NCBI RefSeq assembly: GCF_018283645.1
Contig: NZ_JAGSXH010000012.1
Location: 1-64,000 of the forward strand
Length of the DNA: 64,000 nt
Source of the DNA: Actinocrinis puniceicyclus
GTDB taxonomy: Bacteria > Actinomycetota > Actinomycetes > Streptomycetales > Catenulisporaceae
Reading direction: 5' to 3'
The position numbers and the translations under genes were made by a program. This document shows positions 4,382 through 64,000 of this stretch, in pieces. The first letter of the stretch is position 1; every line of letters begins with the position of its first letter. Below the pieces are notes generated by a model that saw only the letters and a program-made list of their open reading frames with translations, did no database searches and was not told the DNA's origin.

Positions 4382-7300
4382 TTACGTCAGCGAGCCGGTC
4401 CGCAGCATCGTGCGCAGGACGCGCAGCGCCACCGACAGGATCGACAGATCGAAGCTGTCCGCGCTGCCGATCTCCTCAAGGACCGCCTGCGCCCGGTCCA
4501 CCGCCGCCTTGTTCTTCGCCACCCAGGTGGCGAAGCGGGCGTCCGGTTCGGTCTCGCCGGGCGCCGCGGCCAGTACCTCGAAGGTCAGCGCGGCCTGAGC
4601 GCTGTACAGCTCCTCGCGCACGGCGGCGCGGGCCATCGCCTGCCAGCGGTCCGTGCGCGGCAGGGCATTGATACGGTCCCGAAGCACGCCGATACGCAAG
4701 CGGTCCAGGATGTCGAAGTAGCACTCGGCCACCTCGATCGGAGCGCGGCCGCTGTCCCAGGCGACCTCGACGATGTCGAGGGCCGAGTAGGCGGTCGAGA
4801 GGGTGGCGCCCCGGGCGGCCAGGTCCTCGGGCACCCCGGCGTCGAGCAACTCCTGCTTGGCCGCAGCCAACTGGTCGAAGTCCGCGCCCTTGAGCAGCTT
4901 GGGCAGCTGCGCGACCACTTCGGCGACGCCGGTGTGGAACGACTCGGCCTGGAGCGCGATGTCCAGCGGATGCCGGCGGTTGAGCAGGAACCAGCGGGAC
5001 GCGCGCTCGGTCAGCCGCCGCGCGGCCAGCCGCATGCGCACCTGTGTCTGGGCCGCGACCCGGTTGTCCAGCGCGTCCACGGCGGACCAGTACGCGGGCA
5101 TGTCGAACACGGCGCGGGCCACGATGTGCGCGCGGGCGATCTCCTCGGCCGACGCCCCGGTCTCCTCGCGCATCCGGAACACGAAGGTGGTTCCGGTGTT
5201 GTTCACCATGTTGTTGACGACCTGAGTGGTGATGATCTCCCGGCGCAGCGGGTGCGCCTCGATCCGGTCCCGGAAGCGCTCGCGCAGCGCGGTGGGGAAG
5301 TAGTGGATCAGGTCGCCCATGAGGAACGGGTCGTCCGGCAGCTCCGAGCCCAGCAGCTCGTCTTCCAGGGTGATCTTGGTGTAGGCCAGCAGGACGCACA
5401 GCTCCGGCTGGGTGAGCCCGAGACCCGCCTGGCGCCGCTCGCTGACGGCGCGCTCGCTCGGCAGGAACTCCAGTTCGCGGTTCAGGTGCCCGTCCGCCAC
5501 CAGCTTGCGCAGGTAGCGGGCGTGCACGTTGAGCAGCGAGGACGCCTGCGCCATCGCCGAGGCGAGCGCGACGTTCTGGCCGTAGTTGTCGGCCAGTACC
5601 AGCCCGCCCACCTCGTCGGTCATCGCGGCCAGCAGCGCGCCGCGCTCGGACGGGTCCAACTGCCCGGCGGCCGCCGCCTGGTCCAGCAGGACCTTGATGT
5701 TGACCTCGTGGTCGGAGGTGTCCACGCCGGCGGAGTTGTCGATCGCGTCCGTGCAGATCTTCCCGCCGGTGCCGCCGGCGCCGTGCAGCGCGAACTCGAT
5801 CCGCCCGAGCTGGGTGCAGCCGAGGTTGCCTCCCTCGCCCACCACCTTGACCCGCAGGTCCGCGCCGTTGATCCGGATCGCGTCGTTGGCCTTGTCGCCG
5901 ACGTCGGCGTTCGACTCGGCGCCGGACTTGACGTAAGTGCCGATGCCCCCGTTCCAGAACAGGTCCACCGGCGCGAGCAGGATCGCCCGCATCAGTTCGG
6001 CCGGGGTCGTGCGCGACGGCGAGCCGTCGATGCCGAGAGCGGCGCGTACCTGCGCGGTCAGCGGGATCGACTTGGCGGTGCGCGGGAAGACGCCGCCGCC
6101 CGCGGAGATCAGGCGCTTGTCGTAGTCGGCCCAGGAGGAACGGGGCAGTTCGAACAGTCTGCGGCGTTCGGCGTAGGAGAGCGCGGGATCCGGCGCGGGA
6201 TCGAGGAAGATGTGCCTGTGGTCGAACGCTGCGACCAGCTTGATGTGTTCGGACAGAAGCATGCCGTTGCCGAACACGTCCCCTGACATGTCGCCGATGC
6301 CGACGACGGTGAAGTCCTGTCGCTGCGTGTCGATGCCCAGTTCGCGGAAATGGCGCTTGACCGACTCCCAGGCGCCGCGCGCGGTGATGCCCATCGCCTT
6401 GTGGTCGTAGCCGACCGAACCTCCGGAGGCGAAGGCGTCGCCGAGCCAGAAACCCTTGCCGCCGGGACCCCACACGTCACACTCGGCCGCAACCGCGTTG
6501 GCGGTGTCGGAGAACGAGGCGGTGCCCTTGTCGGCCGCGACCACCAGGTACGTGTCGTCGCCGTCGAAGCGGACCACGTCGACGGGCGGCACGGCCTTGC
6601 CGTCCACCAGGTTGTCGGTGATATCCAGCAGGCCCTTGATGAACGTCTTGTAACACTCGACGCCCTCGGCGAGGAACGCGTCGCGGTCCGCCGAGTCGAC
6701 CGGGCTCTTGACCACGAAACCGCCCTTGGCGCCGACCGGGACGATCACGGCGTTCTTCACCATCTGCGCCTTGACCAGGCCGAGGATCTCGGTGCGGAAG
6801 TCCTCGCGCCGGTCGGACCAGCGCAGTCCGCCGCGGGCGACCGCGCCGAAGCGCAGGTGGACGCCCTCGACGCGGGCCGAGTAGACCCAGATCTCGTACT
6901 TGGGCCGGGGCTGCGGCAGGTCGGGCACGGCCGCCGCGTTGATCTTGAACGAGATGTAGGGCTTCGGCCCGCCGCCTGCGGCCTTCTGGTAGAAGTTCGT
7001 GCGCAGCGTCGCCTCGATCACCGCGCGCAGCGAGCGCAGGATGCGGTCCTCGTCGAGCGAGGCGACCGCGTCCAGCGCGCCCTCCGCCTCCTCGACCAGC
7101 CCGTCGATCAGCTCGCGGCCGGCCGCGGCGTGCGCCGGGTCGAAAGAAGCCTCGAACAGCTTGACCAGCAACCGGGCCAGGCCGGGATTGCGGCTGAGCA
7201 CCAGTTCGATGTACTCCTGGCTGAACGGGGTGCCGCCCTGCCGCAGGTACTTGGCGTAGGCGCGCAGCACGGTCACCTGGCGCCAGGCCAGCCCGGCGCG

Positions 7301-9370
7301 CACCACCAGCGCGTTGAAACCGTCGTTCTCGGTCAGCCCGGACCAGGCGGCGGCGAAGGCGGCGGTGAACCGCTCCCGGGCGGCCTCGTCGCGCAGGGAC
7401 TCGGGGTCGGCCACGCGCAGCCCGAAGTCGTAGATCCACGCCGCGTCGCCGCACCGCCGGCTCAGTTCGTACGGGTGCTCGTCGAGGACTTCGACCCCGA
7501 AGCGCTGGAGGATCGGGAGCACCTCGCCGAGCGGGATCATCCGGCCGACCCGGAAGATCTTCAGGCTGTACTGCTCGGGCGGGGCGCCGGGCCTGCGGTA
7601 GACCGCCAGCGAGGAGTCGGTGGTGTCGTCGGAGTGGATCGCCTCGATCCGGAACAGGTCCTTGACGGCGTTCTCCGGCGGGAAGTCCGCCTTGTAACCC
7701 TCCGGGAAGGCGCCGGCGTAGTCGCGCAGCAGTTCGGCGGCGCGTTCCGGGCCGACCGTATCGCCCAGTCGCGCGGCGAAGTCGTCCTCCCAGGTGCGGA
7801 TCGCGGCGGTCAGCCGGCGTTCGATCAGCTCCGCGTCGACGACGGGCAGCCGGTTGCCCGGGGCCACCCGCACCACGAAGTGCAGCCGGGTGAGCACCGA
7901 CTCGGTGGACCGGACGGTGTAGTCCACGACGGCGCCGTCCAGCTCGTCCAGCAGGATGCGCTGGAGCCTGAGCCGCGCGTCGGTGGTGTACCGGTCCCGC
8001 GGCAGATATACGAGCGCGGAGAAGTACCGGCCGTACTCGTCCTGACGCAGGAACAGGCGCAGACGCCGGCGTTCCTGGAGGTGAAGCACGGAGCCGGTGA
8101 TCTCAGCCAGCTCGTCCACCGGGATCTGGAACAGGTCGTCGCGCGGGTACGACTCCAGGATCTGTAGCAGGTCCTTGCCCGAGTGCGAGGTCAGGGCGTA
8201 TCCGTGGACGTCGAGGACCTGGCGCACCTTCTGCCGGATGACCGGAACGCGCTGCACCGACTCGGAATAGGCCGCCGCCGAGAACAGACCGAGGATGCGC
8301 TGTTCGCCGACGACCCGCCCCTCGGCGTCGAACCGTTTGACGCCGATGTAGTCCAGGTAGCCGCGCCGGTGCACGGTCGCGCGCGAGTTGGCCTTGGTCA
8401 GCACCAGCAGCCTCGGCTCGCGCGCCTTGGCCCGGACCTCCTGCGGCAGCTTGGCGAAGGACCGGGAGGAGCCGTGCGGCTGGTCGGAGCGCAGGATCCC
8501 CAGGCCGGTGCCCGTGACCGGGCGCAGCGAGTCCTCACCGTCGACCTGTTCCAGGGTGTACTCGCGGTACCCGACGAAGGTGAAGTGGTCGTCGGCGAGC
8601 CACCGCAGCAGTTCCTGGCCGGCGGTCACCTCGTCGTAGGAGACGCCGGCGCGCTGCGCGGCGCGGCCCTGCTCGGCGTCCAGGCCCTCGGCTATGGCGA
8701 GCGCGGTGGCGCGCATCTTGGGCCAGTCCTCGACGGCCTCCCGCACATCGCGCAGCACCCGGCGCAGGTCGGCCTCGATCGAGGCGAGCCGGTCCGGGTC
8801 CTCGGGCTGGCGATCGATCTCGATGTGCATCCAGGACTCGGTAAGCGCCCCGGCCGGCGTCTGCTGCGGCGGGTCGGCGTCCGGCAGCGAACGCAGCCGG
8901 CCGACCAGATCCCGCTCCACCGCGAACACCGGGTGGAAGACCACATGGATGCCGTGCCCGAGCCGGCTCAGTTCGGCGGTGACGGAATCGACCAGAAAGG
9001 GCATGTCGTCGGTGACGATCTCCACCACGGTGTGCGTGGTGGCACCGGTGGTCCAGCCGGAACGTTCGGGTGTGGGCGTGTACACGCGGATCTTCGCGGT
9101 GCCCTGCGGCCGGTTGGCCGCCAGGTCGGCCGAAGACCGCACCGCGCCGAGCAAGTCGGCGCAGGTGCGGTCAGCGAGATCGTCGAACGGGACGTGCCGG
9201 TAGTAGCGGCGCAGGACCGTTTCCGCCTGCGCTGGATCAAGAGGCGCCGATCCGGTTTCCGCCTGTCCGCCCGCCCCCTGCCCCGCGCCGCTGCCGCCTT
9301 CGGCCTTCCGCGCGAGTAGCGCGGCCTCCTCCAGCAGTGCGGCCTTGGCCTCGTCCAGCTGCGTCACCAT
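4382..9370 (-). CDS. gdh: NAD-specific glutamate dehydrogenase, 180-kDa class
   Basis: Large NAD-dependent glutamate dehydrogenase of the type first described in Streptomyces clavuligerus, converting glutamate to 2-oxoglutarate and ammonium, usually in the catabolic direction. From ATG at 9370 it is 1662 residues, normal for the class; this start has GTAGGAG seven bases upstream, better than an in-frame ATG at 9409. The N-terminal third carries ACT-like regulatory regions. The catalytic core has the Lys-bearing motif VPVGAKGGFVVKSP and the GDMSGDVFGNGML segment, and a long helical C-terminal domain ends the protein. It stands alone, with no cotranscribed nitrogen genes; the nitrate cluster is 30 kb away. 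Confidence 0.95.
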   Translation of the reverse strand: MVTQLDEAKAALLEEAALLARKAEGGSGAGQGAGGQAETGSAPLDPAQAETVLRRYYRHVPFDDLADRTCADLLGAVRSSADLAANRPQGTAKIRVYTPTPERSGWTTGATTHTVVEIVTDDMPFLVDSVTAELSRLGHGIHVVFHPVFAVERDLVGRLRSLPDADPPQQTPAGALTESWMHIEIDRQPEDPDRLASIEADLRRVLRDVREAVEDWPKMRATALAIAEGLDAEQGRAAQRAGVSYDEVTAGQELLRWLADDHFTFVGYREYTLEQVDGEDSLRPVTGTGLGILRSDQPHGSSRSFAKLPQEVRAKAREPRLLVLTKANSRATVHRRGYLDYIGVKRFDAEGRVVGEQRILGLFSAAAYSESVQRVPVIRQKVRQVLDVHGYALTSHSGKDLLQILESYPRDDLFQIPVDELAEITGSVLHLQERRRLRLFLRQDEYGRYFSALVYLPRDRYTTDARLRLQRILLDELDGAVVDYTVRSTESVLTRLHFVVRVAPGNRLPVVDAELIERRLTAAIRTWEDDFAARLGDTVGPERAAELLRDYAGAFPEGYKADFPPENAVKDLFRIEAIHSDDTTDSSLAVYRRPGAPPEQYSLKIFRVGRMIPLGEVLPILQRFGVEVLDEHPYELSRRCGDAAWIYDFGLRVADPESLRDEAARERFTAAFAAAWSGLTENDGFNALVVRAGLAWRQVTVLRAYAKYLRQGGTPFSQEYIELVLSRNPGLARLLVKLFEASFDPAHAAAGRELIDGLVEEAEGALDAVASLDEDRILRSLRAVIEATLRTNFYQKAAGGGPKPYISFKINAAAVPDLPQPRPKYEIWVYSARVEGVHLRFGAVARGGLRWSDRREDFRTEILGLVKAQMVKNAVIVPVGAKGGFVVKSPVDSADRDAFLAEGVECYKTFIKGLLDITDNLVDGKAVPPVDVVRFDGDDTYLVVAADKGTASFSDTANAVAAECDVWGPGGKGFWLGDAFASGGSVGYDHKAMGITARGAWESVKRHFRELGIDTQRQDFTVVGIGDMSGDVFGNGMLLSEHIKLVAAFDHRHIFLDPAPDPALSYAERRRLFELPRSSWADYDKRLISAGGGVFPRTAKSIPLTAQVRAALGIDGSPSRTTPAELMRAILLAPVDLFWNGGIGTYVKSGAESNADVGDKANDAIRINGADLRVKVVGEGGNLGCTQLGRIEFALHGAGGTGGKICTDAIDNSAGVDTSDHEVNIKVLLDQAAAAGQLDPSERGALLAAMTDEVGGLVLADNYGQNVALASAMAQASSLLNVHARYLRKLVADGHLNRELEFLPSERAVSERRQAGLGLTQPELCVLLAYTKITLEDELLGSELPDDPFLMGDLIHYFPTALRERFRDRIEAHPLRREIITTQVVNNMVNNTGTTFVFRMREETGASAEEIARAHIVARAVFDMPAYWSAVDALDNRVAAQTQVRMRLAARRLTERASRWFLLNRRHPLDIALQAESFHTGVAEVVAQLPKLLKGADFDQLAAAKQELLDAGVPEDLAARGATLSTAYSALDIVEVAWDSGRAPIEVAECYFDILDRLRIGVLRDRINALPRTDRWQAMARAAVREELYSAQAALTFEVLAAAPGETEPDARFATWVAKNKAAVDRAQAVLEEIGSADSFDLSILSVALRVLRTMLRTGSLT

Positions 9371-58681: not shown

Positions 58682-58763
58682 GCAGCAAGGAGTTATTCCG
58701 CGCAGCGCTCCTTACCGTCCGGGCAGGGTCGCGGGCGATCTACCGCAAGCTGTGACCGCCGAC

Positions 58764-58840
58764 CGTGGCCCGTGGCCCGTGATCCGTGCTCAGTGATCCG
58801 TGCTCAGGGATCCGTGATCCGTGATCCGTGATCCGTGGCA
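58764..58840. repeat. Eleven tandem 7-bp units
   Basis: A strict 7-base period runs through 77 bases: CGTGGCC, CGTGGCC, CGTGATC, CGTGCTC, AGTGATC, CGTGCTC, AGGGATC, CGTGATC three times and CGTGGCA. The consensus is CGTGATC. It lies between the MFS gene and the ECF42 operon, 24 bases upstream of the predicted ECF42 promoter. It is not a CRISPR (no spacers). Confidence 0.9.
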
Positions 58841-58863
58841 CGAAGAGATTCACTGCGGCCGGT

Positions 58864-58931: not shown

Positions 58932-59270
58932 ATGGCGGAATACATGATCCTGCTGTTCGACGACGAGACCGCGTGGGCCGAGGCGTCGCCGGACGAGTAC
59001 GACCGGATCTTCAAGGCACACGGCCGTTTCCAGGAGCAGTGCGCCGAACTGGGCGGCCGTATCGTCAGCAGCGGCGCGCTCCAGCCGACGAGCACCGCCA
59101 CCAGCGTGCGCGGCGACGTGGTCACCGACGGCCCGTTCGCGGAGACCAAGGAGGCTCTCGGCGGCTACTACCTGATCGACGCTCAGGACCTGGACCAGGC
59201 ACTGGCCATCGCGAAGCTCGTCCCGGTGCTCAGGGGCGGCGTCGAGGTGCGGCCGATCATGGTCTTCTGA
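58932..59270 (+). CDS. YCII-related DGPF protein, ECF42 partner
   Basis: A 112-residue dimeric alpha-beta barrel protein of the YCII/DGPF family. It contains the diagnostic VTDGPFAETKEALGGYYLID. Proteins of this family are encoded beside ECF42 sigma factors in most genomes that have them and are thought to be linked to sensing or to the target function, but this has not been shown. AGGA precedes ATG at 58932. It is the first gene of a two-gene operon, and the sigma factor starts three bases after its stop. Confidence 0.92.
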   Translation: MAEYMILLFDDETAWAEASPDEYDRIFKAHGRFQEQCAELGGRIVSSGALQPTSTATSVRGDVVTDGPFAETKEALGGYYLIDAQDLDQALAIAKLVPVLRGGVEVRPIMVF

Positions 59271-59273
59271 CAG

Positions 59274-60605
59274 ATGACGCCGGACCCGCGATCACGGCCG
59301 GACCGCGGCGACGCCTTCCACGGGGGTGTGGGCGACGCCGCGTACGTCCGGTCCGCGATCGAGGACGCGCACCGTCGCGAGTGGGCCTTCGTGCTCGCCG
59401 CCACGGCGCGCGTCGCCGGTGATCTCGACCTGGCCGAGGAGTGCGTGCAGGACGCGTATCTCGCGGCGCTCGACGCGTGGACCAGACAGGGCGTGCCGAG
59501 CAGCCCCGGGGCGTGGTTGACCACGACGGCCCGCCGGCGCGCCCTGGATGTCTGCCGCCGCCGGCGGACGCTGCGGGACAAACTGCCTCTGCTCGTCGAG
59601 CCGGAGCCCGCGCTCGAAGGTGTCGACGCCGGTGACGGGCCGGACTGCGCCGCGGTGCCCGACGACCGGCTGCGCCTGATCTTCACCTGCTGCCATCCCG
59701 CGCTCGCCGGGGAGGCGCAGATCGCGCTCACCCTCCGTCTGGTGTGCGGCCTGACGACCCGCCAGATCGCGCACGCGTTCCTGGTCTCGGAGGCGACGAT
59801 GGCCGCGCGCGTGACCCGGGCCAAGAAGAAGATCGCCGCGGCGCGCATCCCCTACCGTGCGCCGGACGCCGACGAACTGCCCGACCGGCTCGGCAGGGTG
59901 CTGTCAGTGATTCATCTGGCCTACACGACAGCTCACACCGATCCCACCGGCGCCGAGCTGATGCACCGGGACCTGGCGGCCCGGGCGATCGATCTCGCGC
60001 GCATGCTGCTCGCTCTCATGCCCGACGAACGCGAGGTGCGCGGCCTGCTCGCGCTGCTTCTGCTCACCGACGCGCGCGCCGCGGCGAGGATCGACGCACA
60101 GGGCCGCTTGGTGCTGCTGGAAGACCAGGACCGCGATCGCTGGAACCGCGGCTTCATCGAGGAGGGCACGGGCCTCGTCGCGCGAGCGCTGCGCGGCGGC
60201 CGTCCCGGACGCTACGCGCTCCAGGCCGCGATCGCGGCTCTGCACGACGAGGCCGTGTCGTATCAGGACACCGACTGGCCGCAGATCGTCGAGCTCTACG
60301 ACGTGCTCATGCGCGTATGGCCGTCCCCTGTCGTCGCGCTCAACCGCGCGGCGGCCCGGTCCATGGTCTATGGCCCGCAGGCCGCTCTCGCCGAGATCGC
60401 CGAGCTCGAACAGCACGCCGCGCGCGCGAAGGCCGACTCGCTGGCCGGATACCGTTATCTAGCGGCCGCGAAGGCCGACCTCCTGCGCCGGCTGGGCCGC
60501 ACGGAGGAAGCGGTGTTGACGTACCGTCAGGCGCTCGAGCTCACCGAAGGGACCGCCGAGCGCGAGTTTCTGCTGCGGAGGCTTCGCGAGCTCGGTGCCG
60601 GTTGA
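59274..60605 (+). CDS. RNA polymerase sigma factor, ECF42 group
   Basis: A 443-residue ECF sigma factor with a long C-terminal extension. Region 2 (about 30-105, AEECVQDAYLAALDAWTRQG ... AWLTTTARRRALDVCRRRR) binds the -10 element. Region 4 (about 130-195, CGLTTRQIAHAFLVSEATMAARVTRAKKKI) binds -35. The following 230 residues are the DUF6596/TPR-like extension that replaces an anti-sigma factor in this group and is reported to be needed for activity. No anti-sigma gene is present. ATG at 59274 lacks its own ribosome site and probably depends on coupling to the DGPF gene. Confidence 0.94.
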   Translation: MTPDPRSRPDRGDAFHGGVGDAAYVRSAIEDAHRREWAFVLAATARVAGDLDLAEECVQDAYLAALDAWTRQGVPSSPGAWLTTTARRRALDVCRRRRTLRDKLPLLVEPEPALEGVDAGDGPDCAAVPDDRLRLIFTCCHPALAGEAQIALTLRLVCGLTTRQIAHAFLVSEATMAARVTRAKKKIAAARIPYRAPDADELPDRLGRVLSVIHLAYTTAHTDPTGAELMHRDLAARAIDLARMLLALMPDEREVRGLLALLLLTDARAAARIDAQGRLVLLEDQDRDRWNRGFIEEGTGLVARALRGGRPGRYALQAAIAALHDEAVSYQDTDWPQIVELYDVLMRVWPSPVVALNRAAARSMVYGPQAALAEIAELEQHAARAKADSLAGYRYLAAAKADLLRRLGRTEEAVLTYRQALELTEGTAEREFLLRRLRELGAG

Positions 60606-60662
60606 GACAAACGGGTCTGTCGCCCTGTCACCCGTTCAGACATCTCTCACTAATACGGCCTA

Positions 60663-60693
60663 CACCTGAGCGCACTCGACAGGTGGAGTGCGC
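60663..60693 (+). promoter_or_regulatory. Possible pseudoknot in the NlpC/P60 leader
   Basis: A perfect hairpin, GCGCACTC (60670-60677) with GAGTGCGC (60686-60693), has an 8-base loop whose AGGTG (60681-60685) is complementary to CACCT just upstream (60663-60667). These could form an H-type pseudoknot 22 bases before the ATG. A shorter repeat, ACGGGT/ACCCGT (60611-60616, 60630-60635), may end the ECF42 transcript. Confidence 0.4.
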
Positions 60694-60715
60694 AGCACCG
60701 AGTTATGAACGTGTC

Positions 60716-61318
60716 ATGCACAAATTGACCCGGCACCACAGCGAACCCACGGAGCACTTCGCCTCTCGCGCCCGTCGTCGCGCGGTCGCCACGGCGCTCG
60801 CCCCGCTGCTCGCCGCCACGACCAGCCTCCTGATTTCTCCCGCCACCGCCGACGCGACGGTCCGACATACGCACCATCGCGCGGCGGCACACACCTCAGG
60901 CCACCACGCGTCCAAGCGCCCCGCTCACCGAAAGACCACCAGCGCGCCGCACGCGACCGCCATACACGGCTCACGCGGCGCGGTGGCGCTGCGCTTCGCG
61001 GTCGCGCAACTGGGCAAACCGTATCGCTGGGGCGCCACCGGCCCCGGCTCGTACGACTGCTCCGGCCTCACCCAGCGGGCCTGGCGTGCCGCCGGGGTGT
61101 CGATTCCGCGCACGACGCAGGCGCAGGCGCGCTTCGGCACTCCCGTACCGCTCAGCCGGATCCAGCCCGGCGATCTGGTGATCTTCTACGCCAACGCCTC
61201 GCACGTGGGGATCTACGCAGGCCACGGCAAGGTGATCGTCGCCCCGCATCGCGGAAAGGCCGTCAGCTACGCGTTGATGCGCTGGATGCCGATCTACGCC
61301 ATCCGCCGGCCTGGCTGA
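60716..61318 (+). CDS. Secreted NlpC/P60 peptidoglycan hydrolase
   Basis: A 200-residue exported cysteine peptidase. A basic N-region with RARRR and a hydrophobic core (about 23-42) ends in ATADA, a plausible signal-peptidase site near residue 47. A His-rich linker (48-80) leads to the NlpC/P60 domain: Cys115 in YDCSGLTQ, His163 in ASHVGIYAG and His178 in APHRG form the catalytic triad. It probably cuts D-Glu to diaminopimelate bonds in the cell wall. It follows the ECF42 operon with 110 bases between, so control by that sigma factor is possible but unshown. Confidence 0.93.
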   Translation: MHKLTRHHSEPTEHFASRARRRAVATALAPLLAATTSLLISPATADATVRHTHHRAAAHTSGHHASKRPAHRKTTSAPHATAIHGSRGAVALRFAVAQLGKPYRWGATGPGSYDCSGLTQRAWRAAGVSIPRTTQAQARFGTPVPLSRIQPGDLVIFYANASHVGIYAGHGKVIVAPHRGKAVSYALMRWMPIYAIRRPG

Positions 61319-61403: not shown

Positions 61404-61729
61404 TGGCGGATGGCGCAGCTCGCGGAGCCGGAGCACTCACGTGTCGTTCAAGCGAAAGTGGCCGGCCCCGCTACCGCTTCGTCACTTCACGTTGAGGACC
61501 TGCTGGATCGGGTTGAGCGCGAAGTAGGCCGCGAACAGCGCGGCCACGATCCACAGTAGCGGGCTTACCTCGCGGATCTTGCCCGCCGCGGCCTTGACCA
61601 GCACGAAGGCGATGACGCTGGCGCCGATGCCGACCGTGATCGAGTAGGTGAACGCCATCAGCGTCATCGCCAGGAACGCCGGGACCGCGATCGTCCAGTC
61701 GTCCCAGGGCACGGCCTTGATCTGGGTCA
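61404..61729. repeat. Direct repeat copy A: duplicated 3' end of the purine permease gene
   Basis: This stretch is 326 bases long and matches 62544-62869 at an offset of 1140 with 7 mismatches (about 98 %). It contains the last 80 codons of the permease and about 78 bases past its stop. Four of the seven differences fall in the 45 bases nearest the vapC side. Confidence 0.95.
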
Positions 61730-61730
61730 A
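61482..61730 (-). pseudogene. Orphan C-terminal fragment of the NCS2 permease
   Basis: An 82-codon reading in the permease frame, nearly identical to the C-terminus of the intact gene at 62622 (MTQIKAVPWDDWTIAVPAF ... LNPIQQVLNVK). It holds only the last two or three membrane segments, has no ribosome site and opens at TTG where the duplication ends. It is a by-product of the duplication, not a working transporter. Substitutions such as Gly-Lys-Ile-Arg for Gly-Arg-Val-Arg show modest divergence. Confidence 0.9.
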
Positions 61731-61762
61731 TGCTTGTTCGCGCCCTACTGCGGGATCTGCGG

Positions 61763-62194
61763 CTACCGGTCGAAGGGAAGCAATCGGAAAGCGTCGAAGC
61801 GTCTGGTCAGCGGAGTGACGGTGCGAAAGTGCCGCTGGTCCGCGGTCAAGATCTCGTTCGTCTCGTAACGCTCGGCGAGCACTGCGTTGACCGCATCCGT
61901 AAGCCCGATCCTCAAGTCCCGGTGCTTGGCGACAAGGTGGCGTGCGGCGCGCAGGTCGTCCGAGTCGAGGTCCGGGAGCTCGTACGCGCCACCGGTCAGA
62001 TCGTCGATTACCGCAAGTTCCTGCTCGACTCCGGCCTTGTCCAGCACCATGTAGTCAATCTCCGCCACAACCAGCGGGGAGACGACGGGTGGCTGGTCGG
62101 CGCCGGTCAGCACCTCGCGCACATCGCCGTACAACGGGTGCTTAGGGATCGTGCCGATCAGATACCCGGAGGTGTCGACGATCAGGCGCGCCAC
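61763..62194 (-). CDS. vapC: PIN-domain ribonuclease toxin, VapC family
   Basis: A 143-residue PIN protein. The conserved acidic residues are in LIVDTSGYL (Asp7), VVAEIDYMV, LTDAVNAVLAERY and ILTADQRHF. VapC toxins cut tRNA or rRNA in a Mg-dependent way. GTG at 62194 has GGAGGG six bases upstream and overlaps the antitoxin stop by 13 bases, the usual coupled arrangement. The pair lies between two copies of the permease 3' end, so it arrived as an insertion. Confidence 0.92.
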   Translation of the reverse strand: MARLIVDTSGYLIGTIPKHPLYGDVREVLTGADQPPVVSPLVVAEIDYMVLDKAGVEQELAVIDDLTGGAYELPDLDSDDLRAARHLVAKHRDLRIGLTDAVNAVLAERYETNEILTADQRHFRTVTPLTRRFDAFRLLPFDR

Positions 62195-62439
62195 CAGTCG
62201 CCCTCCAGCCCGTGCTCGCCGAACCCGGCGGACAAGTGCGCGTCAACGTCGTCAGCGACCGAAGGGGCCATATCAAGCGCCGGCGGATTGGGTTTGGGCC
62301 GCTCAGGTTCCTCGGCCAGCAACCGATCGATCGCGTCGCGGATCAGCTCGGCCTCGCTGCGGTGGCGGCGCCGTGCGGCCAGGGATAGGCGCTGCTTGGC
62401 GTCCCGTGACAGGTAAACGGTGGTGCGCGTCATACTCAT
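62182..62439 (-). CDS. vapB: Ribbon-helix-helix antitoxin, VapB type
   Basis: An 85-residue antitoxin. The N-terminus is an RHH DNA-binding fold (TRTTVYLSRDAKQRLSLAARRRHRSEAELIRDAIDRLL); a Pro-rich linker and the C-terminal toxin-binding segment ending GLEGDWWRA follow. ATG at 62439 (or 62433) comes directly after a palindrome; there is no ribosome site, but TACCAT at normal -10 distance suggests a leaderless transcript. It overlaps vapC by 13 bases. Confidence 0.9.
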   Translation of the reverse strand: MSMTRTTVYLSRDAKQRLSLAARRRHRSEAELIRDAIDRLLAEEPERPKPNPPALDMAPSVADDVDAHLSAGFGEHGLEGDWWRA

Positions 62440-62440
62440 G

Positions 62441-62450
62441 CCATATATGG
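62441..62450 (-). promoter_or_regulatory. Palindromic operator at the vapBC promoter
   Basis: CCATATATGG is a perfect 10-base palindrome, one base upstream of the vapB ATG. On the minus strand it overlaps TACCAT, which would be the -10 for a transcript starting at the ATG. This is the layout expected for autorepression by the RHH antitoxin. Confidence 0.6.
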
Positions 62451-62543
62451 TAGGGGAACTTGGCATCTCGGAAGCGGCACCGGCCACCGCGGCTGAAATT
62501 ACTGCGCGGCAGTCGCTGGCGCGCCGTCGGCAGGCCAGTTCAG

Positions 62544-62869
62544 TGGCGGATGGCGCAGCTCGCGGAGCCGGAGCACTCACGTGTCGTTCAAGCGAAAGTG
62601 GCCGGCCCCGCTACCGCTTCGTCACTTCACGTTGAGGACCTGCTGGATCGGGTTGAGCGCGAAGTAGGCCGCGAACAGCGCGGCCACGATCCACAGCAGC
62701 GGGCTTACCTCGCGGACCCTGCCCGCCGCGGCCTTGACCAGCACGAAGGCGATGACGCTGGCGCCGATGCCGACCGTGATCGAGTAGGTGAACGCCATCA
62801 GCGTCATCGCCAGGAACGCCGGGACCGCGATGGTCCAGTCGTCCCAGGGCACGTCCTTTATCTGCGTCA
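62544..62869. repeat. Direct repeat copy B: native 3' end of the permease gene
   Basis: The partner of 61404-61729. This copy is continuous with the intact permease gene, so it lies at the gene-body side of the inserted vapBC module. The repeat begins at the same base (TGGCGGATGG) in both copies, giving a sharp outer boundary. Confidence 0.95.
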
Positions 62870-64000
62870 TCATCAAGAAACCGACCACCACCAGAGCCGG
62901 GGCGGCGGCCTGCTGCGGCACGACCGTGGCCAGCGGGGTCAGCAGCGAGGTCAGGCCCAGCAGCAAGCCGGTGACCACCGAGGCCAGACCGGTGCGGGCG
63001 CCCTCGCCGACACCGGCCGCCGACTCCACGAAGGTCGTGTTCGAGCTCGCCGAACCGAAGCCGCCGGCCGCCGCGGCCAAGCCGTCGATGAACAACACGC
63101 GGCCGATGTTCGGCACGTTGCCGTCCGCGTCGAGCAGACCGGCCTCGGAGCTGACGCCGACGATCGTCCCCATCGCGTCGAAGAAGTCGGAAAGGATCAG
63201 CGTGAAGATGAACACGATCGCGGTGACCACGCCGGCGTGTACGAAGCCGCCGAACAGCGAGACCTTGCCCAGCAGCCCGAAGTCCGGGGTGGAGACCACC
63301 GAGTGCGGCCACTTCGGCTGGATCAGGCCCCAGTCGGCGGCCTTGAGGTGCGCCGCGTAGTTGATGACGATCGCCAGAATCGTGGTGCCCACGATCGAGA
63401 TCAGGATCGCCCCCGGCACGCGGCGCACCAACAGGACGAAGGTGACCAGCACACCGACGCAGAAGACCAGGATCGGCCAACCGGTCAGCTCGCCGTTGTT
63501 GCCCAGCTGCACCGGCACGGTGGACTGGGCCGCATCCGGGATCCGCGTGACGAACCCGGCGTCCACCAGGCCGATCAGCGCGATGAACAAGCCGATGCCG
63601 ACACCGATGGCCTTTTTCATCGGCACCGGGATGGCGTCCATGATCAGCCGGCGCAGACCGGTGACCACGAGCAGGCAGATGCCCAGGCCCTCCAGCACCA
63701 CCAGCCCCATCGCGTCCTGCCAGGACATCGTCGGAGCGATGGTGAACGCCACGACGCCGTTGAGCCCGAGGCCGGCGGCGATGGCCAGCGGCAGATTCCC
63801 GCCCAGGCCCATGACCAGCGTCATCACGCCGGCGACGATCGCCGTGGCGGCGGTGAGCTGGCCCAGGTTCAGCGTGTGACCGTAGAGGTCCTTGCCGCTG
63901 CCGAGGATGATCGGGTTGAGCACCACGATGTAGGCCAGGGCGAAGAAGGTGGCGACGCCGCCGCGCACCTCGCGGCCCGCCGTGGTGCCGCGCTCGGTCA
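62622..64000 (-). CDS. NCS2-family purine permease (AzgA/GhxP-like), N-terminus beyond window
   Basis: A purine/H+ symporter with about twelve membrane segments, missing only its first residues at the right edge; the reading frame stays open to 64000 with ERGTTAGREVRGGVATFF, the typical first-helix approach. Signature regions are FALAYIVVLNPIIL, AAGLGLNGVVAFT, FFDAMGTIVGVSSEAGLLD and FGSASSNTTFVESAAGVGEGARTGL, matching adenine/guanine/hypoxanthine transporters. The gene is intact at its 3' end, thanks to the duplicated segment that separates it from vapBC. Confidence 0.94.
   Translation of the reverse strand, partial: TERGTTAGREVRGGVATFFALAYIVVLNPIILGSGKDLYGHTLNLGQLTAATAIVAGVMTLVMGLGGNLPLAIAAGLGLNGVVAFTIAPTMSWQDAMGLVVLEGLGICLLVVTGLRRLIMDAIPVPMKKAIGVGIGLFIALIGLVDAGFVTRIPDAAQSTVPVQLGNNGELTGWPILVFCVGVLVTFVLLVRRVPGAILISIVGTTILAIVINYAAHLKAADWGLIQPKWPHSVVSTPDFGLLGKVSLFGGFVHAGVVTAIVFIFTLILSDFFDAMGTIVGVSSEAGLLDADGNVPNIGRVLFIDGLAAAAGGFGSASSNTTFVESAAGVGEGARTGLASVVTGLLLGLTSLLTPLATVVPQQAAAPALVVVGFLMMTQIKDVPWDDWTIAVPAFLAMTLMAFTYSITVGIGASVIAFVLVKAAAGRVREVSPLLWIVAALFAAYFALNPIQQVLNVK

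Follow-up and report, generated by a model that had tools for sequence, protein, structure and literature searches.

A vapBC toxin-antitoxin module flanked by long direct repeats of a permease gene end suggests insertion with target duplication

Introduction

Restriction-modification genes are reported to insert into genomes with long, variable target duplications on the order of 100 bp (Nobusato et al. 2000; summarized in PMC3874152, PMC3031569, PMC1643837). For toxin-antitoxin modules, the route of integration has been called unelucidated in a review, and a full-text literature search, confined largely to papers outside subscription, returned no report of their insertion with a long target duplication. 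Here we analyze a vapBC pair that lies between two copies of a permease gene end in a 64-kb stretch of DNA (the window). The locus resembles restriction-modification insertions in that a selfish gene pair appears to have inserted alone, without a transposase and with a long, variable direct repeat, and in that the target is present as a single copy in a relative. It differs in its cargo, a vapBC type II toxin-antitoxin module, and, considered together with similar loci, in its actinobacterial hosts and repeats of 109 to 326 bp. We suggest that the locus extends the insertion mode of restriction-modification genes to another class of addiction genes.

Other described systems share individual features with the locus. 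As in VapBC26-type modules, a ribbon-helix-helix antitoxin gene overlaps a PIN toxin gene whose product has four acidic residues; unlike in known VapBC26-like modules, the mode of entry appears to be visible, and the nearest VapC relatives, encoded in two MAGs and one genome of another family, are 69 to 73% identical. In CIMEs and other att-flanked islets, too, direct repeats of a gene 3' end enclose cargo that has no integrase of its own, but here there is no common core, and the repeat at a second locus (L151, described below) is wholly host sequence. Unconventional circularizable structures (UCS) also combine recombinase-less cargo with long direct repeats, and excision of a circle would be possible in principle at our locus. 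In contrast to UCS, the window repeat is the end of the target gene.

Results and Discussion

The gene pair in the window (Table 1) is predicted to be a complete vapBC type II toxin-antitoxin module. The vapB gene lies directly upstream of vapC and overlaps it by 13 bp. By sequence, the toxin matched the structure of Mycobacterium tuberculosis VapC26, and the alignment showed that all of the acidic residues (D7, E45, D100, and D119) are kept; no Pfam or NCBIfam model matched VapC at an E value of ≤1e-3. In addition to vapBC, the DNA between the repeats comprises 33 bp after vapC and about 100 bp before vapB, with no further gene, and homology to other vapBC loci is restricted to positions 61785 to 62453. 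Neither a transposase nor an integrase gene was present within the insert, no inverted-repeat pair was found at its ends, and defence-system models gave no match. A phage origin of VapC was rejected for want of any phage match, as was a plasmid origin, since all plasmid matches were below 45% identity. No flanking repeats were found at the loci of the closest VapC relatives (L075, L076, and L096). The L075 relative (positions 5001 to 5432, 72% identical) has no matching vapB, carries G at the position of the first catalytic D, and adjoins a YCII-ECF sigma pair, roughly as the window module does.

Table 1. Features of the window locus and of the flanking repeats at L151
Feature	Coordinates	Strand	Description
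YCII-like, ECF sigma factor, and NlpC/P60 genes	58932..61318	+	between copy A and the MFS gene
Repeat copy A	61404..61729	-	duplicated permease 3' end, start-less fragment
Presumed inserted unit	61730..62543	-	DNA between the repeats, about 812 bp
vapC	61763..62194	-	putative toxin, 143 aa, PIN-type RNase; PDB 5x3t (VapC26), E 2e-28
vapB	62182..62439	-	antitoxin, 85 aa, ribbon-helix-helix; Pfam RHH_1 (PF01402), E 5e-6
Repeat copy B	62544..62869	-	intact permease 3' end (last ~83 codons) plus 78 bp past the stop
Permease (target gene)	62622..63968	-	intact, xanthine/uracil-type, 448 aa; Pfam PF00860 (Xan_ur_permease), E 1e-25
L151 outer copy	7675-7818		beyond the toxin gene
L151 inner copy	8582-8725		end of an 801-aa ATPase gene

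The first-pass annotation of this DNA had placed vapBC between two permease 3' ends of about 98% identity, one of them still in an intact gene, and this description held. The two copies of the repeat are each 326 bp, lie on the same strand at an offset of 1,140 bp, and differ by seven mismatches (97.85% identity). No other direct repeat with an E value of ≤1e-6 exists anywhere in the window, so the repeat is not a product of chance. The target gene remains whole beside the insert and aligns end to end with orthologues of the same family at 70 to 79% identity, and copy A retains 83 codons without a frameshift and without a proper start. Elsewhere in the genome, the permease end matched nothing beyond a 47-bp stretch at 83% identity. 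A transcription terminator common to the duplicated 3' end was considered and rejected, the fold being no better than those of shuffled sequences (z -0.88), and no terminator or promoter consensus stood out.

The genome is a draft of 430 contigs, and the copies match without a difference over 112 bp and again over 153 bp, both of which would suit an assembly artefact. Such an origin is scarcely credible given the clean unique flanks and the sensible polarity of the seven fixed differences; these differences also make it unlikely that the repeat was collapsed or copied during assembly. Polarity was judged against four same-family genomes (G001, G003, G005, and G002). Two of the seven mismatches trace to changes in the intact permease, neither of which alters an amino acid (ACC>ACG and ATC>ATA). 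Three trace to the fragment, where GAC>GCC (D>A) and GTC>ATC (V>I) alter amino acids and CTG>CTA does not, and two are unclear. Although only seven sites are involved, this distribution fits the pattern predicted by duplication in place followed by decay of a useless copy. The crowding of three mismatches into the 16 bp next to the right edge counts against insertion with target duplication. The copies are 97.9% identical to each other, compared with about 75% to any relative.

The source genome is the sole member of its genus in the compared set, which included 13 genomes of the same family (G001 to G013), and a VapC of the window type was absent from all 13. G001 and G005 are not informative, as their contigs break off near the permease; the nearest informative genome is G003. 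There (L065) the order ligT-MFS-permease is the same as in the window, with 126 bp from the permease stop to the MFS start, a single permease tail, no vapBC, and no second copy. The empty site that the first-pass annotation had proposed to seek among relatives was found at the family level, with about 76% identity to the window, but not as the exact window site, where the YCII-sigma-NlpC block to the left of copy A replaces the ancestral neighbour and leaves the left junction without an ancestral counterpart. Since the MFS gene and the permease are adjacent in G003, we read this block as a second, separate insertion at the same site. Upstream of the MFS gene, positions 58763 to 58846 hold a short degenerate tandem repeat (CCGTGATC-like).

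Alternatively, vapBC may already have stood beside the permease when the 326-bp end was duplicated, or a tandem duplication of the end together with vapBC may have been followed by loss of the second vapBC. Because no congener was among the genomes searched, the direction of events in the window is not fixed, which leaves room for such histories. We nevertheless consider them distinctly unlikely: they require two events rather than one, the toxin is missing from the 13 same-family genomes and from the G003 site, and the second locus has the form of a one-step product set against clean empty sites. No relative was found that lacks vapBC and carries both permease ends, the arrangement that would place the duplication before the module.

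This second locus, L151, is a vapBC pair (7827-8530) in G093, a genome of the Streptomyces group whose genus is presumed. Its 144-bp flanking copies are identical at 142 of 144 positions (98.6%), and the 763-bp insert contains vapBC only, beginning 8 nt past the vapC stop and ending 51 bp before vapB. Four relatives (G651, G608, G557, and G016) lack vapBC and have a single copy at this site. The overlap between the two flanks in G651 is exactly 144 bp, and this empty site is about 82% identical to the L151 copies; with G651 as the reference, both differences between the copies are derived in the outer one. The two copies in G093 also have many bases in common that the four relatives lack, and the whole 144-bp repeat is the host's own sequence. 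Judged from these alignments, a bare vapBC was inserted at L151 in a single step, with duplication of the target.

The same anatomy would be produced by Campbell-type homologous integration, in which the resident gene recombined with incoming DNA of a related strain, circular or linear, that already carried vapBC next to a permease end, so that the second copy was imported. Import may have occurred at some loci, such as L102, where the copies differ by 26% and the outer one appears closer to G565, of another species, than to its own gene. For the window, with no congener in the set, a donor of about 98% identity is conceivable. Such an origin merely shifts the question to how vapBC first met the permease end, and at L151 it is opposed by the lineage-specific bases common to both copies and absent from four relatives; overall, we regard it as unlikely. 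A host origin of both copies is seen at L151, and the polarity in the window, judged against same-family genomes, would fit such an origin.

We conclude that the vapBC module of the window probably arrived by insertion with long target duplication, and the combined evidence is best read as showing that actinobacterial type II toxin-antitoxin modules also insert in this way. The related loci suggest that such pairs can enter genomes alone, without a transposase, duplicating 100 to 330 bases of the landing site. Insertion of this kind, as the first-pass annotation had proposed, gains support from the G003 empty site, the absence of VapC from the family, the polarity of the mismatches, and L151.

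In the proposed mechanism, a break a short way downstream of the permease 3' end would have taken up a piece of DNA consisting of little beyond promoter-vapB-vapC. The two ends of the break would have been staggered, or resected, over about 326 nt before the gaps were filled. Alternatively, a repair fork may have copied the fragment, switched template, and resumed upstream, thereby copying the stretch of ~326 nt again. Either course would leave the last 83 permease codons plus 78 bp on both sides of the insert, with one copy keeping the permease whole and the other becoming a drifting fragment. The break and the enzyme that joined its ends are inferred, as are the origin of the vapBC fragment and its function on arrival. 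Gene ends would be favoured as targets since the target gene stays functional through the longer copy. A Ku gene is present in the source genome (G000), G093, and G016; none was detected in G039 or G158, in which the repeats are more diverged (older or mosaic). End joining is therefore not an explanation for all cases.

The frequency of such arrangements was assessed by searching for direct repeats of ≥40 bp around vapC in up to 16 to 19 kb of DNA surrounding each of 85 VapC loci. Flanking repeats were found at 14 of the 85, compared with 4.0 expected from random positions in the same regions (P ≤ 5e-5), and stricter limits (gap of ≤1.5 kb, identity of ≥85%) left five loci compared with 0.35 expected. 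The window locus is counted here, and its exclusion leaves the result unchanged. When 30 loci of each family were sampled from the same genus, four PIN loci, five ParE/RelE loci, and one glyoxalase locus had flanking repeats; the last family served as a small control sample unrelated to toxin-antitoxin systems (n = 30), and its single case is weak (75% identity).

The 14 are not uniform: some of the repeats are tRNA fragments or IS and may have another cause. Repeats that are ends of protein genes, with the genes named from sequence rather than by family search, include cases at the permease (window), the ATPase (L151), a gene for a 492-aa product (L276), a Ppx-like gene (L278), an RNA methyltransferase gene (L102 and L104), and an aminotransferase gene (L279); among these, modules occur both in the same and in the opposite orientation to the target gene. 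Gene 3' ends are classic targets of integration, and 3' fragments of tRNA-Pro, tRNA-Gly, or tRNA-Arg flank some VapC/PIN loci, as would be anticipated if the repeats were the attL and attR of a CIME-like islet mobilized by an integrase acting in trans. Site-specific integration is nonetheless highly unlikely, as target, repeat length, and edges change from each protein-gene site to the next, the window has no integrase and no short conserved core, and all 144 bp at L151 are host sequence.

That type II toxin-antitoxin modules (vapBC and relBE-like) are self-mobile in actinobacteria by one general process, with target duplications of 60 to 330 bp at gene ends, is a tentative generalization that is somewhat more likely to fail than to hold. 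If true, it would explain how these modules enter chromosomes without a mobile element. The present loci bear on the unsolved question of how toxin-antitoxin genes move, and a module between fresh target copies, together with an empty site in relatives, opens that question to testing. With the repeats as markers, an insertion can be dated, its edges placed, and genomes screened for further repeats of the kind; the repeats also provide each module with a ready route of deletion, by which the benefit or cost of its loss could be measured. In the scenario of the first-pass annotation, recombination between the window copies would remove vapBC, and post-segregational killing may then act against the loss.

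Several flanked loci were set aside. As instances of the same process we rejected L109, L121, L130, L106, L127, L148, L254, and L259, whose repeats are tRNA fragments, and L174, whose repeat is an IS; all remain within the 14 of 85 except L254 and L259, which belong to the separate PIN sample. At six of these loci (L106, L109, L121, L127, L130, and L254), vapBC or PIN genes lie amid repeated 3' fragments of tRNA-Gly(CCC). In the same genome as L151, L276 (G093:C13) consists of a relBE-like pair between 109-bp repeats (924-1032 and 1774-1882, 99.1% identical) that represent the 3' end of the neighbouring gene, to which the pair is oriented in the opposite direction. It was not accepted as an empty-site case: the target is single copy in relatives, but its outer flank is unrelated to theirs. 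Nor was L278, for which G557 and G637 seem to be single copy, yet many Streptomyces have the module there, in keeping with either gain or loss. L102 and L104 were rejected as clean cases because their repeats are mosaic and perhaps partly imported. The 3' end of the RNA methyltransferase gene is a hot spot in genomes of the Streptomyces group (L102, L104, L213, L223, L216, and L218), where, depending on the species, vapBC, phd-doc, or a DUF234-like ATPase gene lies downstream, accompanied by mosaic copies of the gene end.
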